DNA from: Rhodoferax sp.
GTDB taxonomy: Bacteria; Pseudomonadota; Gammaproteobacteria; Burkholderiales; Burkholderiaceae_C
Length of the DNA stretch: 55,027 nucleotides
Assembly: GCF_018063565.1 (NCBI RefSeq)
Contig: NZ_JAGPBB010000014.1
Location: forward strand, 1-55,027
Reading direction: 5' to 3'
In this document: positions 11,457 through 40,296 of the stretch, piece after piece
Numbering within the stretch: position 1 is the first letter of the stretch
Layout: each line of letters opens with the position of its first letter
The notes under the pieces: generated by a model
What the model saw: only the letters and a program-made list of their open reading frames with translations
Told to the model about the DNA's origin: nothing
Databases searched by the model: none
Program-made: the position numbers and the translations under genes

Positions 11457-12158
11457 ATGATCACGCTGAGACCGTCCCAAGCCCGTGGGTATGCCGACCA
11501 TGGCTGGCTCAAGTCGTTTCATAGTTTTTCGTTTGCCGATTATTTCGATCCGCAACACATGGGCTGGGGCAATCTGCGCGTCATCAACGAGGACTGGATC
11601 GAGGCCGGCAAGGGCTTTGGCACCCATGGCCATCGCGACATGGAAATCATCACCTATGTTCTGTCAGGCGCGCTGGCGCACCAGGACAGCATGGGTAACA
11701 TCGAATCGATCCAGCCGGGTGAAGTGCAGCGCATGAGTGCAGGAACCGGTGTGCGCCACAGCGAGTTCAACCATGCGAAGGCGCAGACCACCCATTTGCT
11801 GCAGATCTGGATTCAGCCCAGTGTCCAGGCCGTGACCCCCAGTTACCAACAGAAGTCGTTTGCCGTTGCGGACAAGCAGGGCCGTCTGTGCCAGATTGCC
11901 TCAGCGGATGGTGCACAGGGGTCGCTGTCGATGAACGCTGATGCGCGCCTGTACGCCGGACTGTTCGACGAAGGGCAAAGCGCCACGCTGGCACTGCAAC
12001 CGGGGCGTAGGGCCTACGTTTTTCTGGTGCGAGGCCAGCTCGCCGTCAACAGCCTTGCGCTGGGCCAGGGTGACGCTGCTCTGCTGGCCGACGAGGCGGC
12101 GGTGTTGCTGACGAATGCCGTCAGTGCCGAAGTTCTGGTGTTCGATCTGAGCGCCTGA
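11457..12158 (+). CDS. Pirin family protein (YhaK type)
   Basis: A 233-residue bicupin of the pirin family. The first cupin has the metal ligands in GTHGHRDMEIITYVLSGALA followed by GTGVRHSEFNHAKAQ. The beginning RGYADHGWLKSFHSFSFADY is diagnostic. The second cupin half lacks the ligands, as is normal. Pirins are iron proteins; some degrade quercetin and others act as redox sensors, and this sequence does not decide between these. ATG 11457 has a GGAG ribosome site 9 bases upstream. It is followed 39 bp later by the flavodoxin gene, and both are likely controlled by the divergent LysR. Confidence 0.94.
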   Translation: MITLRPSQARGYADHGWLKSFHSFSFADYFDPQHMGWGNLRVINEDWIEAGKGFGTHGHRDMEIITYVLSGALAHQDSMGNIESIQPGEVQRMSAGTGVRHSEFNHAKAQTTHLLQIWIQPSVQAVTPSYQQKSFAVADKQGRLCQIASADGAQGSLSMNADARLYAGLFDEGQSATLALQPGRRAYVFLVRGQLAVNSLALGQGDAALLADEAAVLLTNAVSAEVLVFDLSA

Positions 12159-12948: not shown

Positions 12949-14940
12949 ATGTTTTGCGCCATTAAACCCCCTGCACGTTTCGTTACTGTTGCCGTTTCGG
13001 CGCTGACTCTGGCCGGTGCGTGGTTGCTGACCGCTGCGGCGCAGGCGCAGGAACTCGCTTTGCTGTCCGAGAAAGACTTTCTGGCGGATATGCCGGTGGT
13101 GCTGTCGGTGTCGCGCTTGCCCCAGCGTCTCGATGAAACGCCGGGTACGGTGACCGTACTCGACCGCGAGATGATTCGCCAGAGTGGCGCGCGCGACATC
13201 GCTGACCTGCTGCGCCTGGTACCCGGGTTTCAGGTCAGCACGGCGTTTGAAAGTGGCGCGCCGGTCACCACTTACCACGGTGCCTACAACATTTTTGCCG
13301 GACGCATTGAGCTGTTGATTGACGGGCGCTCCGCCTACACCCCCTATTTTGTCGGCAATATCGCGCCCGGACTGATGGGCATCGCCCCTGCCGAGGTCGA
13401 GCGCATCGAGGTGCTGCGTGGCTCCAATTCAGCGGCTTACGGTGCCCGGGCCATTTTGGGTGTGATCAATATCGTCACCCGTCACAGCGCTGACACCCTG
13501 GGTGCCTCAGCGAATGTCAAAGCGGGCCAGAATGGCATCAGGGATGTCGGTGCCGGGTTGGGCTGGGGCGGCGATGCGGCCACTTACCGTTTGAGTGCCG
13601 ACCGGCGCAGCGACGACGGGTTGCACGGCGCCTACAACCAGAATGCCGTGACGCGGCTGAATTTCCGGTCAGACATCAACCTGTCCGGGCAAGACACCTT
13701 GCAGCTTCACATGGGCGCTTATGTGATTGATGCGGGCAAGGGCAATCCGGGCGACAAGAATGATCCGGGAGGCGACGTCGACGATCCGCCGCGCGATGGT
13801 CTGTTTCGCTCCGAGTTCGCCCAAATCGACTGGCGACGTAACCTCGGTCCCGACCAGGACCTGTTGGTGCGCTTGTCGCACACCCAGGAACGCTACAGCG
13901 ATGATTTCTCCTACTCGCTGCTCCCGCTCGGCATCAAGGACTCGATCAATATCGGGACTGGCGGCCGCAGTCGCAGTGACAGCCTGACCGTGCAGCACAG
14001 TGTGCGCCAGAGCGATGACCTGCGCTGGGTCTGGGGCACTGAGTTTCGAACTGAAAGGCTTGTTTCCCGGGCGTTGTTCAACCGCGACGATGCGCTGTTG
14101 ACCAGGTTTAACCGGCTGTTTGGCAACGTGGAGTGGCGCTTCACGCCGGCCGTGCTGCTCAACGCCGGAGCCATGTATGAGCACAACAGCATTGCGGGCG
14201 ATACCGTGGCACCCCGGTTGATGGTCAATTGGTTGGTGGCACCAGGCCATACCTTGCGTGCCGGGGCCTCGCGCGCCTACCGACCGCCCAGCAGTTTCGA
14301 GCAGTTCGGCAACGTGCGCTACAGCTGGAACGGGCATTTGCTCAGTATCAATACGCTATCGAGCGGACGGGTCAATGAGGAGCGGGTGACCACCCGCGAA
14401 GTCAGCTACCTTGGCGAGTTTCCAAAGTGGGCGTTGTCGCTGGACGTGCGTGCCTTCAAAGAACGGATGGAAGACTTCATCATCCCGGTGGCAGGCTCGC
14501 GCCCGAGGTCTTATGCCAATGACGCGGGTTTTGATATTCAGGGTGTGGAATACCAGCTCAAGTGGCAGGCCTGGCAGGGGGCTCAACTGCTGCTCAATCA
14601 GACCTATACCAAGATCGGACCCGCCCCGGAGTATTCAACAGCCGACCTGGCGGCACCGCGACTGGCCACCACACTGGCGCTGTTTCAAAAGTTGCCCGGC
14701 GACATCGAGCTGAGCCTGATGCATTACCACACCGGGATCACCCGTTTGATCGGTTCTGGATGGGACCGCCAGCCGGTGGTCAACCGCACCGATCTGCGAC
14801 TGGCCAAGCGCATGCGCTGGGGTGCGCACCGGGGTGAACTGGCGTTGGTGGTGCAGAACCTCGGGCCGGACTATCGCGACTACGATCCTGCATTTTTGTT
14901 CAAGCGTCAAGCTTGGCTGGGTTTGACGCTCGAGCGCTGA
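12949..14940 (+). CDS. TonB-dependent outer-membrane receptor
   Basis: A 663-residue receptor with a signal peptide (cleavage probable after AAQAQ near residue 31), a putative TonB box DMPVVLSVSRL, a plug domain (IADLLRLVPGFQVSTAFESG to VERIEVLRGSNSAAYGARAI) and a 22-strand-type barrel. It takes up an unknown ligand with energy from TonB-ExbB-ExbD. The barrel ends in LGLTLER rather than in the aromatic residue usual for outer-membrane proteins. ATG 12949 was chosen because it begins a good signal peptide. Only 8 bp separate its stop from the binding-protein gene, so it is co-transcribed with that gene and the sensor kinase. No siderophore, haem or cobalamin genes are near. Confidence 0.93.
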   Translation: MFCAIKPPARFVTVAVSALTLAGAWLLTAAAQAQELALLSEKDFLADMPVVLSVSRLPQRLDETPGTVTVLDREMIRQSGARDIADLLRLVPGFQVSTAFESGAPVTTYHGAYNIFAGRIELLIDGRSAYTPYFVGNIAPGLMGIAPAEVERIEVLRGSNSAAYGARAILGVINIVTRHSADTLGASANVKAGQNGIRDVGAGLGWGGDAATYRLSADRRSDDGLHGAYNQNAVTRLNFRSDINLSGQDTLQLHMGAYVIDAGKGNPGDKNDPGGDVDDPPRDGLFRSEFAQIDWRRNLGPDQDLLVRLSHTQERYSDDFSYSLLPLGIKDSINIGTGGRSRSDSLTVQHSVRQSDDLRWVWGTEFRTERLVSRALFNRDDALLTRFNRLFGNVEWRFTPAVLLNAGAMYEHNSIAGDTVAPRLMVNWLVAPGHTLRAGASRAYRPPSSFEQFGNVRYSWNGHLLSINTLSSGRVNEERVTTREVSYLGEFPKWALSLDVRAFKERMEDFIIPVAGSRPRSYANDAGFDIQGVEYQLKWQAWQGAQLLLNQTYTKIGPAPEYSTADLAAPRLATTLALFQKLPGDIELSLMHYHTGITRLIGSGWDRQPVVNRTDLRLAKRMRWGAHRGELALVVQNLGPDYRDYDPAFLFKRQAWLGLTLER

Positions 14941-14948
14941 GCGCATCG

Positions 14949-15920
14949 ATGCAGCGCCGACTGTGCCTCAAGGCCGGTGCCCAGATTCTCTGGGTGCCCG
15001 GGTTTGATGCCTTGGCGCAATCGCGGTCCGAGCAGACGGGTGAAGTCGCTGTCTTGCTGGTCAGCAGCGACACCTCGTCGGCCTACGTTGAGGCTGCGAC
15101 GTCGTTGATCCTGTCTCTGGCGCAGTCCGGCGTACCGACGTCGCGTATCCGGCAATTGCAGGCGGCCGAGTTCAAGGCCATTTCGGCGTTGCCGGGTGGC
15201 CCTCCCATCGGGCAGGTGGCGGTGGCGCTTGGGGTTGAGGCAGCCGAACTGCTGGCGACCCACAACGGCCCGGCACCCGTGATTTGTGCGCTGATTCCGC
15301 GCGGCAGTTTCCAGCGGGTGCTGCGTGTCAGTGGCCGGCGCACTTCGAGTAGATTTTCTGCCCTGTATCTGGATCAGCCGCTGGAGAGGCAGTTGGAGCT
15401 GGTGCATCTGGCTCTGCCAAAAGTGCAGCGGCTGGGCGTGCTGCTGGGTCCGGAGTCGGTCAGTAGACTGCCCGCACTGAAGGTGTTGGTGGGCGAGCAT
15501 GGTTTCAGGCTTGCCAGCGCGCAGGTAGACCCGGCCAACGGGGTGTTTTCCGCGCTGGCGCAAGTGCTGGCGGACAGCGATGTTTTGCTGGCACTGGCTG
15601 ACCCGGCGGTTTTCAACAACAACAGTATCCAGAACATTCTGCTGGCGGCGTTTCGGGCGCGGGTGCCGCTGGTGGGTTTCTCCCCGGCTTACACGCGCGC
15701 TGGTGCCTTGTTGTCCCTGCACACGACGCCGGTGCAGGTGGGTATACAGACGGCTGGATTGGTCCGCGATGTGCTCGCCGGTAACCCGCTGCCCACCAGT
15801 GCGCTGGAACCTGACGATTTTGAAGTCATCGTCAACCCGCATGTGGCCCGTGTGCTCGGCTTCGATCTGCAATCACAGGACCTGCGGCAGGTTCTCAAAT
15901 TGGGACGGCATCGGCCATGA
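14949..15920 (+). CDS. Orphan periplasmic binding protein (ABC_sub_bind-like)
   Basis: A 323-residue protein of the two-lobed substrate-binding fold related to the TrpX/ABC_sub_bind family (VAVLLVSSDTSSAYVEAATS, LELVHLALPKVQRLGVLLGP, LLAAFRARVPLVGFSPAYTR). The N-terminus reads MQRRLCLKAGAQILW and is a weak signal peptide ending near ALAQ. No permease or ATPase gene accompanies it. Instead it lies between a TonB receptor and a sensor kinase, and its stop overlaps the kinase start (ATGA at 15917-15920). I infer a role in presenting a ligand to the kinase rather than in transport. Confidence 0.85.
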   Translation: MQRRLCLKAGAQILWVPGFDALAQSRSEQTGEVAVLLVSSDTSSAYVEAATSLILSLAQSGVPTSRIRQLQAAEFKAISALPGGPPIGQVAVALGVEAAELLATHNGPAPVICALIPRGSFQRVLRVSGRRTSSRFSALYLDQPLERQLELVHLALPKVQRLGVLLGPESVSRLPALKVLVGEHGFRLASAQVDPANGVFSALAQVLADSDVLLALADPAVFNNNSIQNILLAAFRARVPLVGFSPAYTRAGALLSLHTTPVQVGIQTAGLVRDVLAGNPLPTSALEPDDFEVIVNPHVARVLGFDLQSQDLRQVLKLGRHRP

Positions 15921-17863
15921 GGGTACTTGACATCCGGTCCCGCATGTTGCTGGTGGCCCTGTTGCCGGTGGCACTGGTCAGTACGGTGCTGGCACTGGTG
16001 TTCATGATGGCGCGGTTTGATGATTTGCAGGAGTCTTATGCATTGCGCACACGCGCGCTGGCACGGCAAGTGGCACTGGCCAGTGAATATGGCCTTTTTT
16101 CTGCCAACACGCAGCAGTTGCAGGTTCTGTTGACCGGGGTGATGCAAGAACCAGACGTGCGTTGGGTCGCGGTCTATGACCGGCAGGGGGTCAAACTGGT
16201 CAGCGCCGGTGAGGACCATGGTCACAATACCCTGGTGTTTGGTGCCACGGAGACCTTGGCGTTTGACGCGGTTAACCGCCTTGACTGGCTCGCCCAACCC
16301 ATCTGGAGTGGCGGTGTGCAACTCGACGACCTTTACGAGAGTCGATCCCATTATTTTTCTCAGATGTCGGCGCAACTGGGCCAGGTGCAACTGGCGTTTT
16401 CACGCCACGCCCTGGATCGGAAAATCCGGAACATGTGGCTCCTTGGTGCCTTGATCGGCGCCCTTGGTCTGGTTTTTGGGCTGTTGCTGGCCTTGCTGCT
16501 CAGCCGTGGTGTGATTCGGCCCATTCAACGCGTGTCACATCTCATCGGACAAATCGGCAGCGGTAATTTCAGGGAGGCACAGGCCGTGCTGACCGCGCTG
16601 CCCGCTAACGACCCATTGCAAGGGCTTCAGCAGCAGTTGCGGCAGATGGCCGGCCAGCTGGCGCTGGCCCGTGAAGACCTGCAGCAGCAGGTGCAGGTTG
16701 CAACCCAGGCGTTGCGTGAGAAAAAAGACGAGGCCGAGCATGCCAATCTGGCCAAGTCGCGGTTTCTCGCCGCGGCCAGTCATGACCTGCGGCAACCCGT
16801 CCATGCACTGGGCCTGTTTGTCACCCGTCTGGCGCAGTTGCAACACGACACGGCGGGGGTTCAACTGGTTGGTCAGTTGGAGGCCTCGGTGCTGGCGATG
16901 CAAAACCTGCTGGACGGCCTGCTGGATATGTCGCGCCTTGAGGCGGGTGCCGTACCGGTGAACATGCAGCCTTTTGCGCTGACTCCCTTGCTGTCGCAAC
17001 TGGCGCACGATCTGGGCGGACAGGCGGCAGAAAAAGGCTTGCGTCTTCGCATCCGTCCAACGCCTCTTTGGGTGCGCAGCGACCCCACACTGGTCTACCG
17101 GATGCTGCTGAACCTGACCGCCAACGCGGTGCGCTACACCTCACACGGCGGTGTGCTGATTTCGGCAAGGCCCTGTGACACCGGGAAGACGGTGCTTTTG
17201 CAGGTCTGGGACACCGGCATTGGCATTGCCCCTGAGCACCAGGCTCAGGTGTTTGCCGAGTTTTACCAGGTGGGCAATGCGGCGCGTGACCGCACCAAGG
17301 GTTTGGGCTTGGGCTTGAACATCGTGCGACGCACGGCAGAGCTGCTCGGTCTTGCGGCCGTGCAACTGCACTCGGTGCCGGGACGCGGCAGCCGTTTTGG
17401 TCTGTCATTGCCAAGGATTGATGCACCGGCGCGGGCGACGACCCCGATTTTGCCTGGTTTACCTGCGACTGACGGGTTGGTCGGCGCCTGCATTCTGGTG
17501 ATCGAAGATGACGCCATGGTGCGCGCCGCATTGACCGCACTACTGGACGGCTGGCAGGTGACGGTGCTGGCAGCCCGCGATGAGTACCAGGCGATACAAC
17601 TGCTGTCAAGCGGGCCACAACCCGGGGTCATCATCAGTGACTATCGGCTTGAAGGCGGGCAAAATGGTATTGCCGTTGTGCGAGCTTTGCGCGTGCACCT
17701 GGGTCGGTCGATTCCGGCTTGCCTGGTGAGTGGCGATACCAGCCTCGATTTGATCCAGGCGGCGCAACAGGCCGGCATGACCTTGCTGCACAAACCGGTG
17801 CGACCAGCCAAACTTCGTACGCTGCTGCGCCGACTGCTGACGCTACCCGATGTCCATCAATGA
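15917..17863 (+). CDS. Hybrid sensor histidine kinase with C-terminal receiver
   Basis: A 648-residue membrane kinase. Membrane segments lie at about residues 10-32 and 173-196 and enclose a ~140-residue periplasmic sensor region of no family I recognise. A HAMP domain (about 197-250) and a coiled coil follow. The HisKA site is FLAAASHDLRQPVHALGL with His289. The ATPase domain shows N403 in NLTANAVRYT, DTGIGIAPEHQ and GLGLGLNIVRRTA. The receiver (about 500-640) has acidic residues in VIEDDAMVR, Asp575 in IISDYRLEGGQNG and Lys in LLHKPVRPAKL. No histidine-phosphotransfer domain is present. It is translationally coupled to the binding protein and convergent with the NarL-type regulator. Confidence 0.94.
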   Translation: MRVLDIRSRMLLVALLPVALVSTVLALVFMMARFDDLQESYALRTRALARQVALASEYGLFSANTQQLQVLLTGVMQEPDVRWVAVYDRQGVKLVSAGEDHGHNTLVFGATETLAFDAVNRLDWLAQPIWSGGVQLDDLYESRSHYFSQMSAQLGQVQLAFSRHALDRKIRNMWLLGALIGALGLVFGLLLALLLSRGVIRPIQRVSHLIGQIGSGNFREAQAVLTALPANDPLQGLQQQLRQMAGQLALAREDLQQQVQVATQALREKKDEAEHANLAKSRFLAAASHDLRQPVHALGLFVTRLAQLQHDTAGVQLVGQLEASVLAMQNLLDGLLDMSRLEAGAVPVNMQPFALTPLLSQLAHDLGGQAAEKGLRLRIRPTPLWVRSDPTLVYRMLLNLTANAVRYTSHGGVLISARPCDTGKTVLLQVWDTGIGIAPEHQAQVFAEFYQVGNAARDRTKGLGLGLNIVRRTAELLGLAAVQLHSVPGRGSRFGLSLPRIDAPARATTPILPGLPATDGLVGACILVIEDDAMVRAALTALLDGWQVTVLAARDEYQAIQLLSSGPQPGVIISDYRLEGGQNGIAVVRALRVHLGRSIPACLVSGDTSLDLIQAAQQAGMTLLHKPVRPAKLRTLLRRLLTLPDVHQ

Positions 17864-18507
17864 ACGCCGCCCGGCACTTTGACATAGCCCCAGCGCGCGG
17901 CCTCGAGTGCAGCCTGCATCCGGGTCTTGACACCGAATCCGCGCAGGATACTTGAGACGTGATTTTTCACTGTTTCATCGGACAGGCTCAGTTGTTCGCT
18001 GATTTCCCGGTTGCTGTATCCGGCGAGTAGCAGCGCCAAGACCTCTTCCTGTCGGGGCGTAAAAACAGGAGGCAGGCTGATCGGCTGAACCTCACGGGCC
18101 GGCACCGTGCCGCCAAACTCCTGAGACTCATAAATGCCACCCGCAAGGACATGGTGCAGGGCACCCAATAGTTCGTCGCTCCGACCAGACTTGGTGATAA
18201 AGCCGGCAGCGCCATTGGCCATGACCCGACGCGCAATGCTGGGATTGGCCGAACCTGACAGGATCACCACCGGCAGTTCAGGGTGTTTCTTGCCAAACAC
18301 TGCCAAAGCAGCCAGACCGTCCATGTCGGGCAGATGGTAGTCCAACAGCACCAGATCGATGTCAGGATGTTGGGATGCAAGCGCAAAGGCCTCGGTGCAG
18401 TGGGATGCCTGCAACACAAGTGTCGGGTCGTCCGGGTCAAGTCCCTGTAATACCTGACACAGGCCTTCGCGAACCAGGGCGTGATCGTCAACGACCAGAA
18501 TCTTCAA
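17857..18507 (-). CDS. NarL/LuxR-family response regulator
   Basis: A 216-residue two-domain regulator. The receiver has the acidic pocket in ILVVDDHALVREGL, phospho-acceptor Asp56 in DLVLLDYHLPDMDG and the conserved Lys in AAGFITKSGRSDE. The LuxR-type helix-turn-helix is FTPRQEEVLALLLAGYSNRE to TVKNHVSSILRGF. The start is a TTG: TTG 18507 has GGAG 8 bases upstream, while TTG 18519 has none. Its 3' end overlaps the end of the hybrid kinase by 7 bases on the opposite strand. It is the natural DNA-binding output for that kinase, although the pairing is inferred from position. Confidence 0.93.
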   Translation of the reverse strand: MKILVVDDHALVREGLCQVLQGLDPDDPTLVLQASHCTEAFALASQHPDIDLVLLDYHLPDMDGLAALAVFGKKHPELPVVILSGSANPSIARRVMANGAAGFITKSGRSDELLGALHHVLAGGIYESQEFGGTVPAREVQPISLPPVFTPRQEEVLALLLAGYSNREISEQLSLSDETVKNHVSSILRGFGVKTRMQAALEAARWGYVKVPGGVH

Positions 18508-18541
18508 GATGCGCTCCAACTGCTTTTCTACAATGCAGGTT

Positions 18542-38852: not shown

Positions 38853-40097
38853 TTACCCATACACTGGAAAACGTGCGGTCAGGGCATTCACTTTGGCCCG
38901 CACGGCTTCAATATTGGCCGGATCGCGCGGATTGTCCAGCACGTCAGCGATCAGATGGGCGGTCAGCCGCGCTTCTTCTTCCTTGAAGCCGCGGGTGGTC
39001 ATGGCGGGTGTACCGATACGCACACCGCTGGTGATCATGGGTTTTTCCGGGTCATTGGGAATGGCGTTTTTGTTGATCGTCATATGGGCTGCCCCCAACA
39101 CGGCCTCAGCTTCCTTACCGGTGATGCCTTTGGCGCGCAAATCAACCAGCATCACATGGGACTCGGTTCGCCCGCTGACAATGCGAAGACCGCGCGCCGT
39201 CAACGTTTCGGCAAGCGTACGAGCGTTGGCGATCACCTGTTGCTGGTAGGCTTTGAAGGACGGATCAAGTGCTTCTTTGAAGGCCACCGCCTTGGCGGCA
39301 ATCACATGCATCAGCGGGCCACCTTGCAGGCCGGGGAAAATGGCACTGTTGATGGCTTTTTCGTGTTGTGCCTTCATCAGGATAATGCCGCCACGGGGTC
39401 CCCGCAGGCTCTTGTGCGTAGTGCTGGTCACCACATCCGCATGTGGCACCGGGTTGGGATAGACCCCGGCTGCAATCAGCCCGGCGTAATGGGCCATGTC
39501 GACCATAAAAATGGCCCCCACGTCCTTGGCTACTTTGGCAAAACGCTCAAAATCGATGGCCAGGGAATAAGCACTGGCACCCGCGATGATCAATTTGGGC
39601 TGGGTTTCGTGCGCTTTGCGCTCCATCGCATCGTAATCAATGGCTTCATTGGCATCCAGGCCATAACTCACCACATTGAACCACTTGCCGCTCATGTTGA
39701 GGGCCATGCCGTGGGTCAGGTGGCCACCCTCAGCCAGGCTCATGCCCATGATAGTGTCGCCAGGTTTCAAAAAAGCCAGAAAAACTGCCTCATTGGCGGA
39801 TGCACCGCAGTGTGGCTGCACATTGGCCGCCTCGGCGCCAAAAATCTGCTTCACCCGGTCGATTGCCAGTTGCTCAGCCACATCCACAAACTCGCAACCA
39901 CCGTAATAACGCTTACCGGGGTAACCTTCGGCATATTTGTTGGTGAGTTGCGTTCCCTGGGCCGCCATGACCGCTGGAGACGCATAGTTTTCGCTGGCGA
40001 TCAGTTCAATGTGGTCTTGCTGGCGCTGGTTTTCCGCCAGGATGATGGCATATAGCTCGGGGTCGGTTTGTTCAATCAATATGTTGCGGTCAAACAT
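38853..40097 (-). CDS. glyA: Serine hydroxymethyltransferase
   Basis: Interconverts serine and glycine and loads one-carbon units on tetrahydrofolate. The 414-residue protein has the PLP lysine in [19 protein letters not shown] and the family blocks [20 protein letters not shown] and [18 protein letters not shown] 40097 begins [19 protein letters not shown], a normal GlyA start. The 5' leader carries a ZTP riboswitch (40150-40279), which ties expression to 10-formyl-tetrahydrofolate shortage. Confidence 0.98.
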
Positions 40098-40149
40098 GGC
40101 AGTCCTTGAAGACGATGAGCCTGTGATTCACTGTTGGCATGAGATAACA

Positions 40150-40279
40150 GGGCTGCCCAGGCGAAAGGCTAAACGCATGGCCCAAAACAGGCGCTGCGGC
40201 ACACTCCCTTGTGGTGGGTCCACATCAGCCCGTTGATTCGACGCAGAATCAGCAGCCTATCGCCAGTTGCGTGCACCCG
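40150..40279 (-). promoter_or_regulatory. ZTP (pfl) riboswitch in the glyA leader
   Basis: On the minus strand the leader shows, in order, GGTGCACGCAACTGGCGA, then GTGGACCCACCACAAGGGAG, then TGTGCC, then CGCCTGGGCA (40163-40154). These are the invariant blocks of the pfl/ZTP riboswitch. GGTGCAC (40277-40271) can pair over seven positions with GTGTGCC to form helix P1, and a GATTC/GAATC hairpin fills the variable arm. The last block ends 56 bases before the glyA ATG. The class binds ZMP/ZTP and switches on folate-dependent one-carbon genes such as glyA and purH. The expression platform between 40098 and 40150 has no T-run, so translational control is more likely than termination. Confidence 0.9.
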
Positions 40280-40296
40280 GGATTTTAGCTGAGTGG

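Follow-up and report, generated by a model that had tools for sequence, protein, structure and literature searches.

Gene content and architecture of the locus

The window, that is, the whole stretch of 55,027 nucleotides from Rhodoferax sp. that was analyzed, contains a cassette of four tightly packed genes. It starts on the forward strand with a TonB-dependent outer-membrane receptor (TBDR) of 663 aa (12949..14940), assigned by the Pfam domains Plug and TonB_dep_Rec_b-barrel and by its open reading frame and start. After a gap of 8 bp (14941..14948), the receptor gene is followed on the same strand by the gene of an orphan class-I substrate-binding protein (SBP) of the PF04392 family, with an ATG start (14949..15920; Pfam and predicted fold). 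The stop of the SBP gene and the start of the next gene overlap in an ATGA (15917..15920, forward strand), and this third gene (15917..17863, forward strand) encodes a membrane hybrid histidine kinase with sCache_4, HisKA, HATPase_c and receiver domains according to Pfam. The 3′ end of the kinase gene shares 7 bp with a convergent gene on the reverse strand (17857..18507), which codes for a NarL/LuxR-type response regulator (Pfam Response_reg and GerE) read from a TTG start, with an alternative in-frame TTG at 18519. Genes and junctions are thus those that the first-pass annotation had described. Because the cassette is flanked by genes for a flavodoxin-fold protein and dnaE (Pfam), neither a permease nor an ATPase adjoins it, which bears out the earlier remark that the binding protein comes without such genes beside it.

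The SBP scores 65.3 bits against PF04392 (ABC_sub_bind; cut-off 25.9), and its N-terminus is short and by eye Tat-like, a putative signal. The best fold matches of its AlphaFold model (pLDDT 95.5, residues 33-323) were CD0873, 3LKV and TrpX 3LFT, which we read as fold likeness only. With these TrpX-type transport proteins the SBP has the Pfam family and the overall fold in common, but it differs from them in having no TrpX-type permease as a neighbor and in the replacement of the signature motifs of transport-type PF04392 proteins (25-row alignment A1); on the NCBIfam TrpX model, it reaches 43.4 bits against a cut-off of 390. Since these motifs differ, carrying over a ligand from the PDB relatives, among whose ligands are Trp and presumably also Phe and Tyr, was rejected. 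Apart from the SBP, the window genome has a single PF04392 protein, which adjoins signaling genes and has no TrpX-type permease in the stretch examined. The nearest named relatives of the SBP are Rhodoferax, Curvibacter, Hylemonella and Polaromonas records, in a comparison from which records of the genome itself were possibly excluded.

The periplasmic part of the kinase, initially described as an unknown domain of ~140 residues, turned out to belong to a recognized family: residues 32-160 match sCache_4 (PF09984; 37.9 bits, cut-off 22.1), with the domain placed at 16010..16408 on the forward strand and supported by its predicted fold. The phospho-acceptor His, ATP-site and receiver-Asp motifs were located in the kinase sequence, and Pfam reported neither an Hpt nor a HAMP domain in it. 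In PMC4822843, sCache_4, then named DUF2222, is described as the sensory module of BarA/GacS-type kinases. The window kinase shares sCache_4, HisKA, HATPase and receiver with the BarA/GacS/LetS kinases; it differs from BarA/GacS in that it has no Hpt, stays far below the cut-off of the NCBIfam BarA model (189.6 bits, cut-off 890), has an SBP neighbor, and has relatives that put sCache_4 on GGDEF and GGDEF-EAL proteins. The nearest models to its C-terminal half and to the NarL regulator are those of the NahK/ErcS kinases (NF041832; 328.9 bits, cut-off 400) and of the ErdR regulator (110.6 bits, cut-off 390), both matched below cut-off.

Recurrence of the receptor, binding protein and sensor

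A search for the SBP in 299 family genomes was two-peaked, one peak comprising 29 non-self loci (E<=2e-26) and the other 93 weaker matches (E>=5.7e-14); the second fragment of a broken SBP gene in one genome (G014) lies between the peaks, at 2.5e-22. The orthologous loci comprise a family set (all 29 non-self orthologues at E<=2e-26 and the window), an order set (58 of 79 non-self matches at E<=8e-44) and a class set (40 loci out of 80 listed non-self matches, 39 of them at E<=2e-42 and G719 at 4e-32). As controls served 31 of the 93 weaker family matches, mostly better-scoring ones and including the second PF04392 protein of the window genome, while two weaker matches obtained along with the order set (L152 and L153) were excluded. 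A named set of 80 loci, kept out of 167 found, was picked for similarity to the window clade and overlaps the family set; being chosen by similarity, it was kept out of the pooled counts.

An effector, i.e., the membrane signaling protein, was called where our own sCache HMM scored >40 bits and the match started between 300 nt before and 700 nt after the SBP stop, a TBDR where a same-strand HMM match ended at most 900 nt upstream, and a permease where an HMM match of >60 bits lay at any place within the fetched sequence (up to ~6.5 kb on each side, less at contig ends). As the family and order loci also supplied the sequences for these HMMs, their use on those two sets is circular in part; the scans with Pfam are independent of them. 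The Pfam scan of effectors covered 78 proteins of the family and order sets, leaving aside L039, L045, L049, L050, L052, L054, L057 and L061, whose effector frame was missed by the ORF picker; the class set, the named set, L152 and L153 lay outside it.

A membrane signaling protein is encoded directly 3′ of the SBP gene in 123 of the 128 orthologous loci of the family, order and class samples, window included, and at 95 of these 123 junctions the two genes overlap by exactly 4 nt. The effector is absent from four loci (L150, L252, L253 and L255, with one lying upstream in L252) and cut by the contig end in one more. A TBDR lies within 900 nt upstream of the SBP in 99 of the 128 loci and is not just upstream in the other 29. 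In the family set, the TBDR is upstream in 30/30 loci and the effector present in 29/30, the 30th being the one cut by the contig end, with the 4-nt overlap in 28/29. The order set (58 loci) has 57 effectors, 37 adjacent TBDRs and the overlap in 45/57, the class set (40 loci) 37 effectors, 32 TBDRs and the overlap in 22/37. Effector and receptor are both complete in the named set (80/80 each), where the overlap is found in 79/80. The suggested co-occurrence of binding protein and kinase is more than chance in a wider sense: a signaling protein follows almost throughout, a kinase being one type out of three.

Of 150 family genomes, 15 have a Pfam match to PF09984, with 15 matches in total, and 13 of these matches lie directly 3′ of an SBP orthologue. 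The 14th, in G007, is below the PF09984 cut-off and has a divergent PF04392 protein upstream (28.2 bits, cut-off 25.9), and for the 15th, in G096, no PF04392-type neighbor was found. Two of the 15 genomes in this sample that carry the SBP (G057 and G106) gave no PF09984 match, yet their effector was detected by our own HMM. No natural fusion of SBP and effector occurs among the loci scanned. Stop-to-stop frames that hold both TBDR and SBP were seen in L050 and L219. Besides, further conserved cassette genes in addition to the regulator were considered and dropped, the larger neighbor clusters (dnaQ, rnhA, gloB and a methyltransferase, named by eye) looking like chromosomal bystanders.

In the fetched stretches, our HMM found a TrpX-type permease near the SBP at none of the 128 orthologous loci (0/128), while such a permease is present at 17 of the 31 more distant control paralogues. 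Whether homologues of the SBP usually adjoin permease genes was the point on which the initial proposal could have failed; close homologues do not, and more distant ones often do. Weak matches to ABC ATPases (25-30% identity), several kb off, occur in 8 of the 58 order loci and in one class locus (L241), for which reason our claim is limited to the absence of a TrpX-type permease, and transporters of other kinds may be present near the orthologous loci. Judged by identical criteria, the controls have a signaling protein directly downstream in 10 of 31 cases, with the 4-nt overlap in 9 of the 10, and a receptor upstream in four. Other branches of PF04392 thus also include signaling types, and signaling neighbors are not unique to the SBP orthologues.

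Exchange of the output and distribution of the regulator

The 123 effectors divide into 63 hybrid kinases, 29 GGDEF proteins and 31 GGDEF-EAL proteins. Among the 78 scanned with Pfam, sCache_4 was found in 74, HAMP in 72, GGDEF in 50, HATPase_c in 28, EAL, HisKA and receiver in 27 each, and Hpt in 3; the signature GG[DE][DE]F is present in 50 of the 78, the same number as GGDEF domains. Two of the 128 loci had short SBP matches and were dropped, which left 126 for a quick tree of the SBP; 122 of them have an effector of known type. This tree requires a minimum of 16 switches between output types, compared with 44-56 when the labels are shuffled, and the sCache tree a minimum of 13, compared with 44-58; tree error could raise the observed counts. 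This pattern points to an input module that is inherited in clades while the output has been exchanged repeatedly.

The convergent NarL regulator accompanies 11 of 13 kinase loci in the family set and 61 of 76 in the named set, and it holds this position at only 1 of 17 kinase loci in the order set and 0 of 33 in the class set; a related regulator is encoded upstream, in the same orientation, at 2/17 and 5/33 of these, respectively. The convergent regulator is thus largely confined to the window's own clade. What recurs of the four-gene neighborhood postulated at the outset is the trio of receptor, SBP and signaling protein, with the receptor adjacent in most of the loci and the regulator mostly a clade-specific addition.

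Co-occurrence of the receptor with the binding protein and sensor

A search with the receptor profile A5 across 150 family genomes, presumably a subset of the above 299, gave 15 genomes at >=622 bits and a next best score of 306. These are the same 15 genomes that carry an SBP orthologue (15/15 versus 0/135; Fisher p 6e-21). With 6 of its 21 rows taken from the family set, the profile makes this search partly circular, and the key to its reading is the score gap from 622 to 306 bits. Beyond the family, 20 chosen genomes were searched, 12 of which have the cassette without an adjacent TBDR. In the order set, 15 loci from 14 genomes lacked a TBDR in the fetched sequence, and the 12 are from among these 14 (G402 and G557 lay outside the search). 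A close TBDR (best scores 579-772 bits) is present in 11 of the 12, as a separate gene in 9 and solely beside a second cassette in G577 and G368, and the twelfth (G506) gave no close TBDR at E<=1e-60. As for the remaining 8, the receptor is present in the 5 genomes with a complete cassette and was found in none of the 3 without an SBP orthologue (G284, G003 and G020).

On the SBP tree, receptor adjacency has to switch at least 16 times, compared with 22-29 times after shuffling of the labels, which suggests that the receptor is lost or gained fairly freely. Displaced receptor genes mostly adjoin housekeeping-like genes (named by eye), and their surroundings were therefore dropped as a clue to the ligand. 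A riboswitch near the receptor was sought as another such clue, and none was found at Rfam thresholds near the cassette in the window or in 10 related loci. The related loci did give Rfam matches of other kinds: L131 has rRNA and tRNAs, and L104 has a SAH riboswitch (11580-11657) at a distance of ~3 kb from its cassette.

A proposed sensory route from the outer membrane to the output

What was observed is which genes make up the cassette, how they are coupled, that no TrpX-type permease lies nearby and that outputs are exchanged. Based on these observations we propose, with a probability of about 0.68, that the cassette is a dedicated sensor and not an uptake system, in which the receptor would bring the ligand and the SBP would carry it to sCache_4. 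A scarce ligand would cross the outer membrane through the TonB receptor and be captured in the periplasm by the orphan class-I SBP, whose fold is predicted and whose binding activity is putative. The very strong gene coupling suggests that the SBP, either loaded or empty, docks on the sCache_4 domain of the product of the overlapping gene. The signal could then reach the fused output, for which the domains are present and the effect is predicted: in the window, the HisKA-HATPase-receiver kinase together with the NarL regulator, and in relatives probably a diguanylate cyclase or a GGDEF-EAL protein. The flow of ligand, the docking of SBP on sCache and the direction of regulation are the predicted parts of this scheme. 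The relay put forward in the first-pass annotation, from receptor through binding protein and kinase to regulator, survives the permease test and has to be recast with sCache_4 as the sensor domain, the kinase as one of three outputs and the NarL regulator as a mostly clade-specific part.

Tree distances provide an additional line of evidence. Across 94 loci and with no species-tree control, the correlation of distances is 0.77 for SBP and sCache, and 0.67 after removing the TBDR; under the same terms, it is 0.52 for SBP and TBDR, and 0.00 after removing sCache, and 0.68 and 0.50 for sCache and TBDR. Uncontrolled for the species tree as they are, these correlations fit the predicted contact between SBP and sCache. 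According to PMC11113362, the genes of 10 of 11 characterized SBP-kinase pairs are adjacent or very close; the same paper reports that the Pseudomonas aeruginosa kinases AgtS and AruS are not bound by the three SBPs encoded beside them, of which two are orphans.

The model of contact has to be weighed against direct sensing, as sCache_4 domains may bind small ligands themselves. The kinase would then sense a small ligand on its own and share an operon with a receptor and an SBP for the same nutrient, with no contact between SBP and sensor. Cache domains usually bind their ligands directly, and sCache_4 exists without a known SBP neighbor, as in the family genome G096 and in BarA/GacS, whose gene neighborhood we take to include no known SBP; in addition, neighboring SBP and kinase genes are sometimes unlinked in function (PMC11113362). 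An uptake operon should however have an inner-membrane transporter, which is at odds with the missing TrpX-type permease at all 128 loci, and the SBP stays with the sCache protein even when the output is GGDEF or GGDEF-EAL or when the TBDR lies elsewhere, so we consider direct sensing unlikely. Still less probable is that the SBP is a normal transport protein whose ABC permease and ATPase have their genes at another place in the genome. Distant PF04392 members do often lie in TrpXYZ-like operons, as in the 17 of 31 controls, but the low TrpX score and the replaced transport motifs of the SBP (alignment A1) argue against such a role, as does the sole other PF04392 protein of the window genome with its signaling neighbors and no TrpX-type permease in its stretch.

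For the receptor, another explanation is that it has no functional tie to the pair of SBP and sensor and is merely a gene whose expression the sensor controls. We regard this as improbable, though worth keeping in mind, given that the SBP-TBDR correlation vanishes once sCache is removed, that no TBDR lies just upstream at 29 loci and that displaced copies mostly stand next to housekeeping-like genes. Against it stand the complete co-occurrence within the family sample and, outside it, the 11 of 12 genomes that hold a close TBDR, in two of them solely inside a second cassette. A chance neighborhood in one genome has next to no probability and is refuted by recurrence across the sampled family, order and class, with the signaling protein directly after the SBP at 123 of 128 loci.

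A broader reading, to which we give even odds, joins these elements: the TonB receptor would import its ligand solely to load a dedicated PF04392 SBP that gates sCache_4, and this input would have been re-wired repeatedly between phosphorelay and c-di-GMP outputs. Held with the same balance of confidence and doubt is its further part, that the cassette is widespread in the class of the window (Gammaproteobacteria in the GTDB sense, by the named relatives) and apparently undescribed. By extension, binding proteins might likewise bring the signals that sCache_4 domains of the BarA/GacS type respond to. In the open-access literature, taken by titles and the starts of abstracts and with most subscription papers outside this scope, we recognized no description of the cassette.

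TonB-dependent import is usually seen as feeding; in this cassette its end point seems to be a sensor, and no dedicated transporter of the inner membrane was found beside it. If true, the proposed route would add a different SBP family, as far as the papers show, to the limited set of characterized SBP-receptor pairs and would tie SBP-receptor signaling to outer-membrane import. It would also offer a lead on sCache_4 as the sensor domain of the global regulators BarA and GacS. The same sensor on kinase, cyclase and GGDEF-EAL outputs would also provide natural sets with which SBP signaling through Cache domains can be tested directly.

Relation to known systems

In FecA-type TonB signaling receptors, a TonB receptor is tied to a signaling output, as in the window cassette. 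The window receptor differs in that Pfam found no STN signaling domain on it at E<=0.001 (Plug and barrel only), and the link would run through a periplasmic binding protein. There is also no ECF sigma/anti-sigma pair among the immediate neighbors, i.e., the flavodoxin-fold protein and dnaE.

NspS of Vibrio cholerae is a polyamine-binding protein of another family than PF04392, and to our knowledge no TonB receptor belongs to the NspS-MbaA system. According to PMC8079147, the SBP gene nspS lies immediately upstream of the gene of the membrane GGDEF-EAL protein MbaA, as in relatives of the window cassette, and the periplasmic domain of MbaA interacts with NspS, which makes this pair the closest c-di-GMP case. 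SBPs are established as signaling partners of kinases, chemoreceptors and c-di-GMP enzymes (PMC9602780 and PMC11113362).

For kinases, the pairs LuxP-LuxQ (Vibrio), TorT-TorS and XylFII-LytS have a class-I periplasmic SBP encoded beside a membrane kinase, as found here, and LuxQ resembles the window kinase in its Cache/PAS-like periplasmic domain and hybrid architecture. The window cassette differs from these pairs in the SBP family (PF04392), the single sCache_4, the TonB receptor in the operon and the outputs exchanged with GGDEF and GGDEF-EAL. Overall, the best reading by analogy is that the cassette would work like LuxP-LuxQ or NspS-MbaA, with another SBP family and an attached receptor. 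TorT is not among the fold matches listed, which excludes nothing; LuxP, LuxQ and XylFII-LytS are among the fold-search matches, and the locus shows two features of SBP-activated receptor pairs, a conserved adjacency of the SBP and receptor genes and an extracytoplasmic Cache/PAS-like domain.

Binding proteins and signalling genes beyond the cassette

Besides the binding protein of the window, its source genome encodes one further PF04392 protein, and signalling genes adjoin this protein too, as they do the window binding protein. The genes concerned (contig C19, L063:6480-10750) lie on the same strand in the order GGDEF gene, Cache-like HAMP-SpoIIE phosphatase gene and, in last place, the PF04392 protein gene, with 12 bp separating the latter two; we take this set to be SiaA/SiaD-like. 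No TrpX-type permease was found near the PF04392 protein within the L063 stretch.

The gene arrangement at L285 (genome G007), where a divergent sCache protein is preceded by a weak PF04392 protein and followed by receptor-like genes, suggests that the cassette family extends beyond the orthologues counted here. A distant parallel of the cassette was observed at L064, L090, L093 and L153 (the last left out of the counts), consisting of a TonB receptor, a binding protein (without Pfam match in L064) and a NarX-like HAMP-HisKA_3 kinase, whose domains have a Pfam basis in L064 alone among these four loci, with a NarL-type regulator close by. In a third arrangement (L066, L068, L072, L075, L076 and L080; Pfam basis for L068 alone), two hybrid kinase genes flank a PF04392-like protein, accompanied in several of these loci by additional exported-looking proteins.

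Local features of individual loci

A dnaQ-like gene, named by eye, lies just upstream of the cassettes lacking an adjacent receptor in L098, L099, L100, L102, L111, L122, L125 and L140. In the related genome G014, the binding-protein reading frame is split into two pieces (L045:3647-4584), which were kept separate in the analysis and may reflect either a sequencing error or decay. Elsewhere in the window, a ZMP/ZTP riboswitch match (40148-40280, minus strand) scores barely above threshold (39.5 versus 39 bits) and precedes a gene for serine hydroxymethyltransferase (38853-40097, minus strand) by approximately 50 bp.
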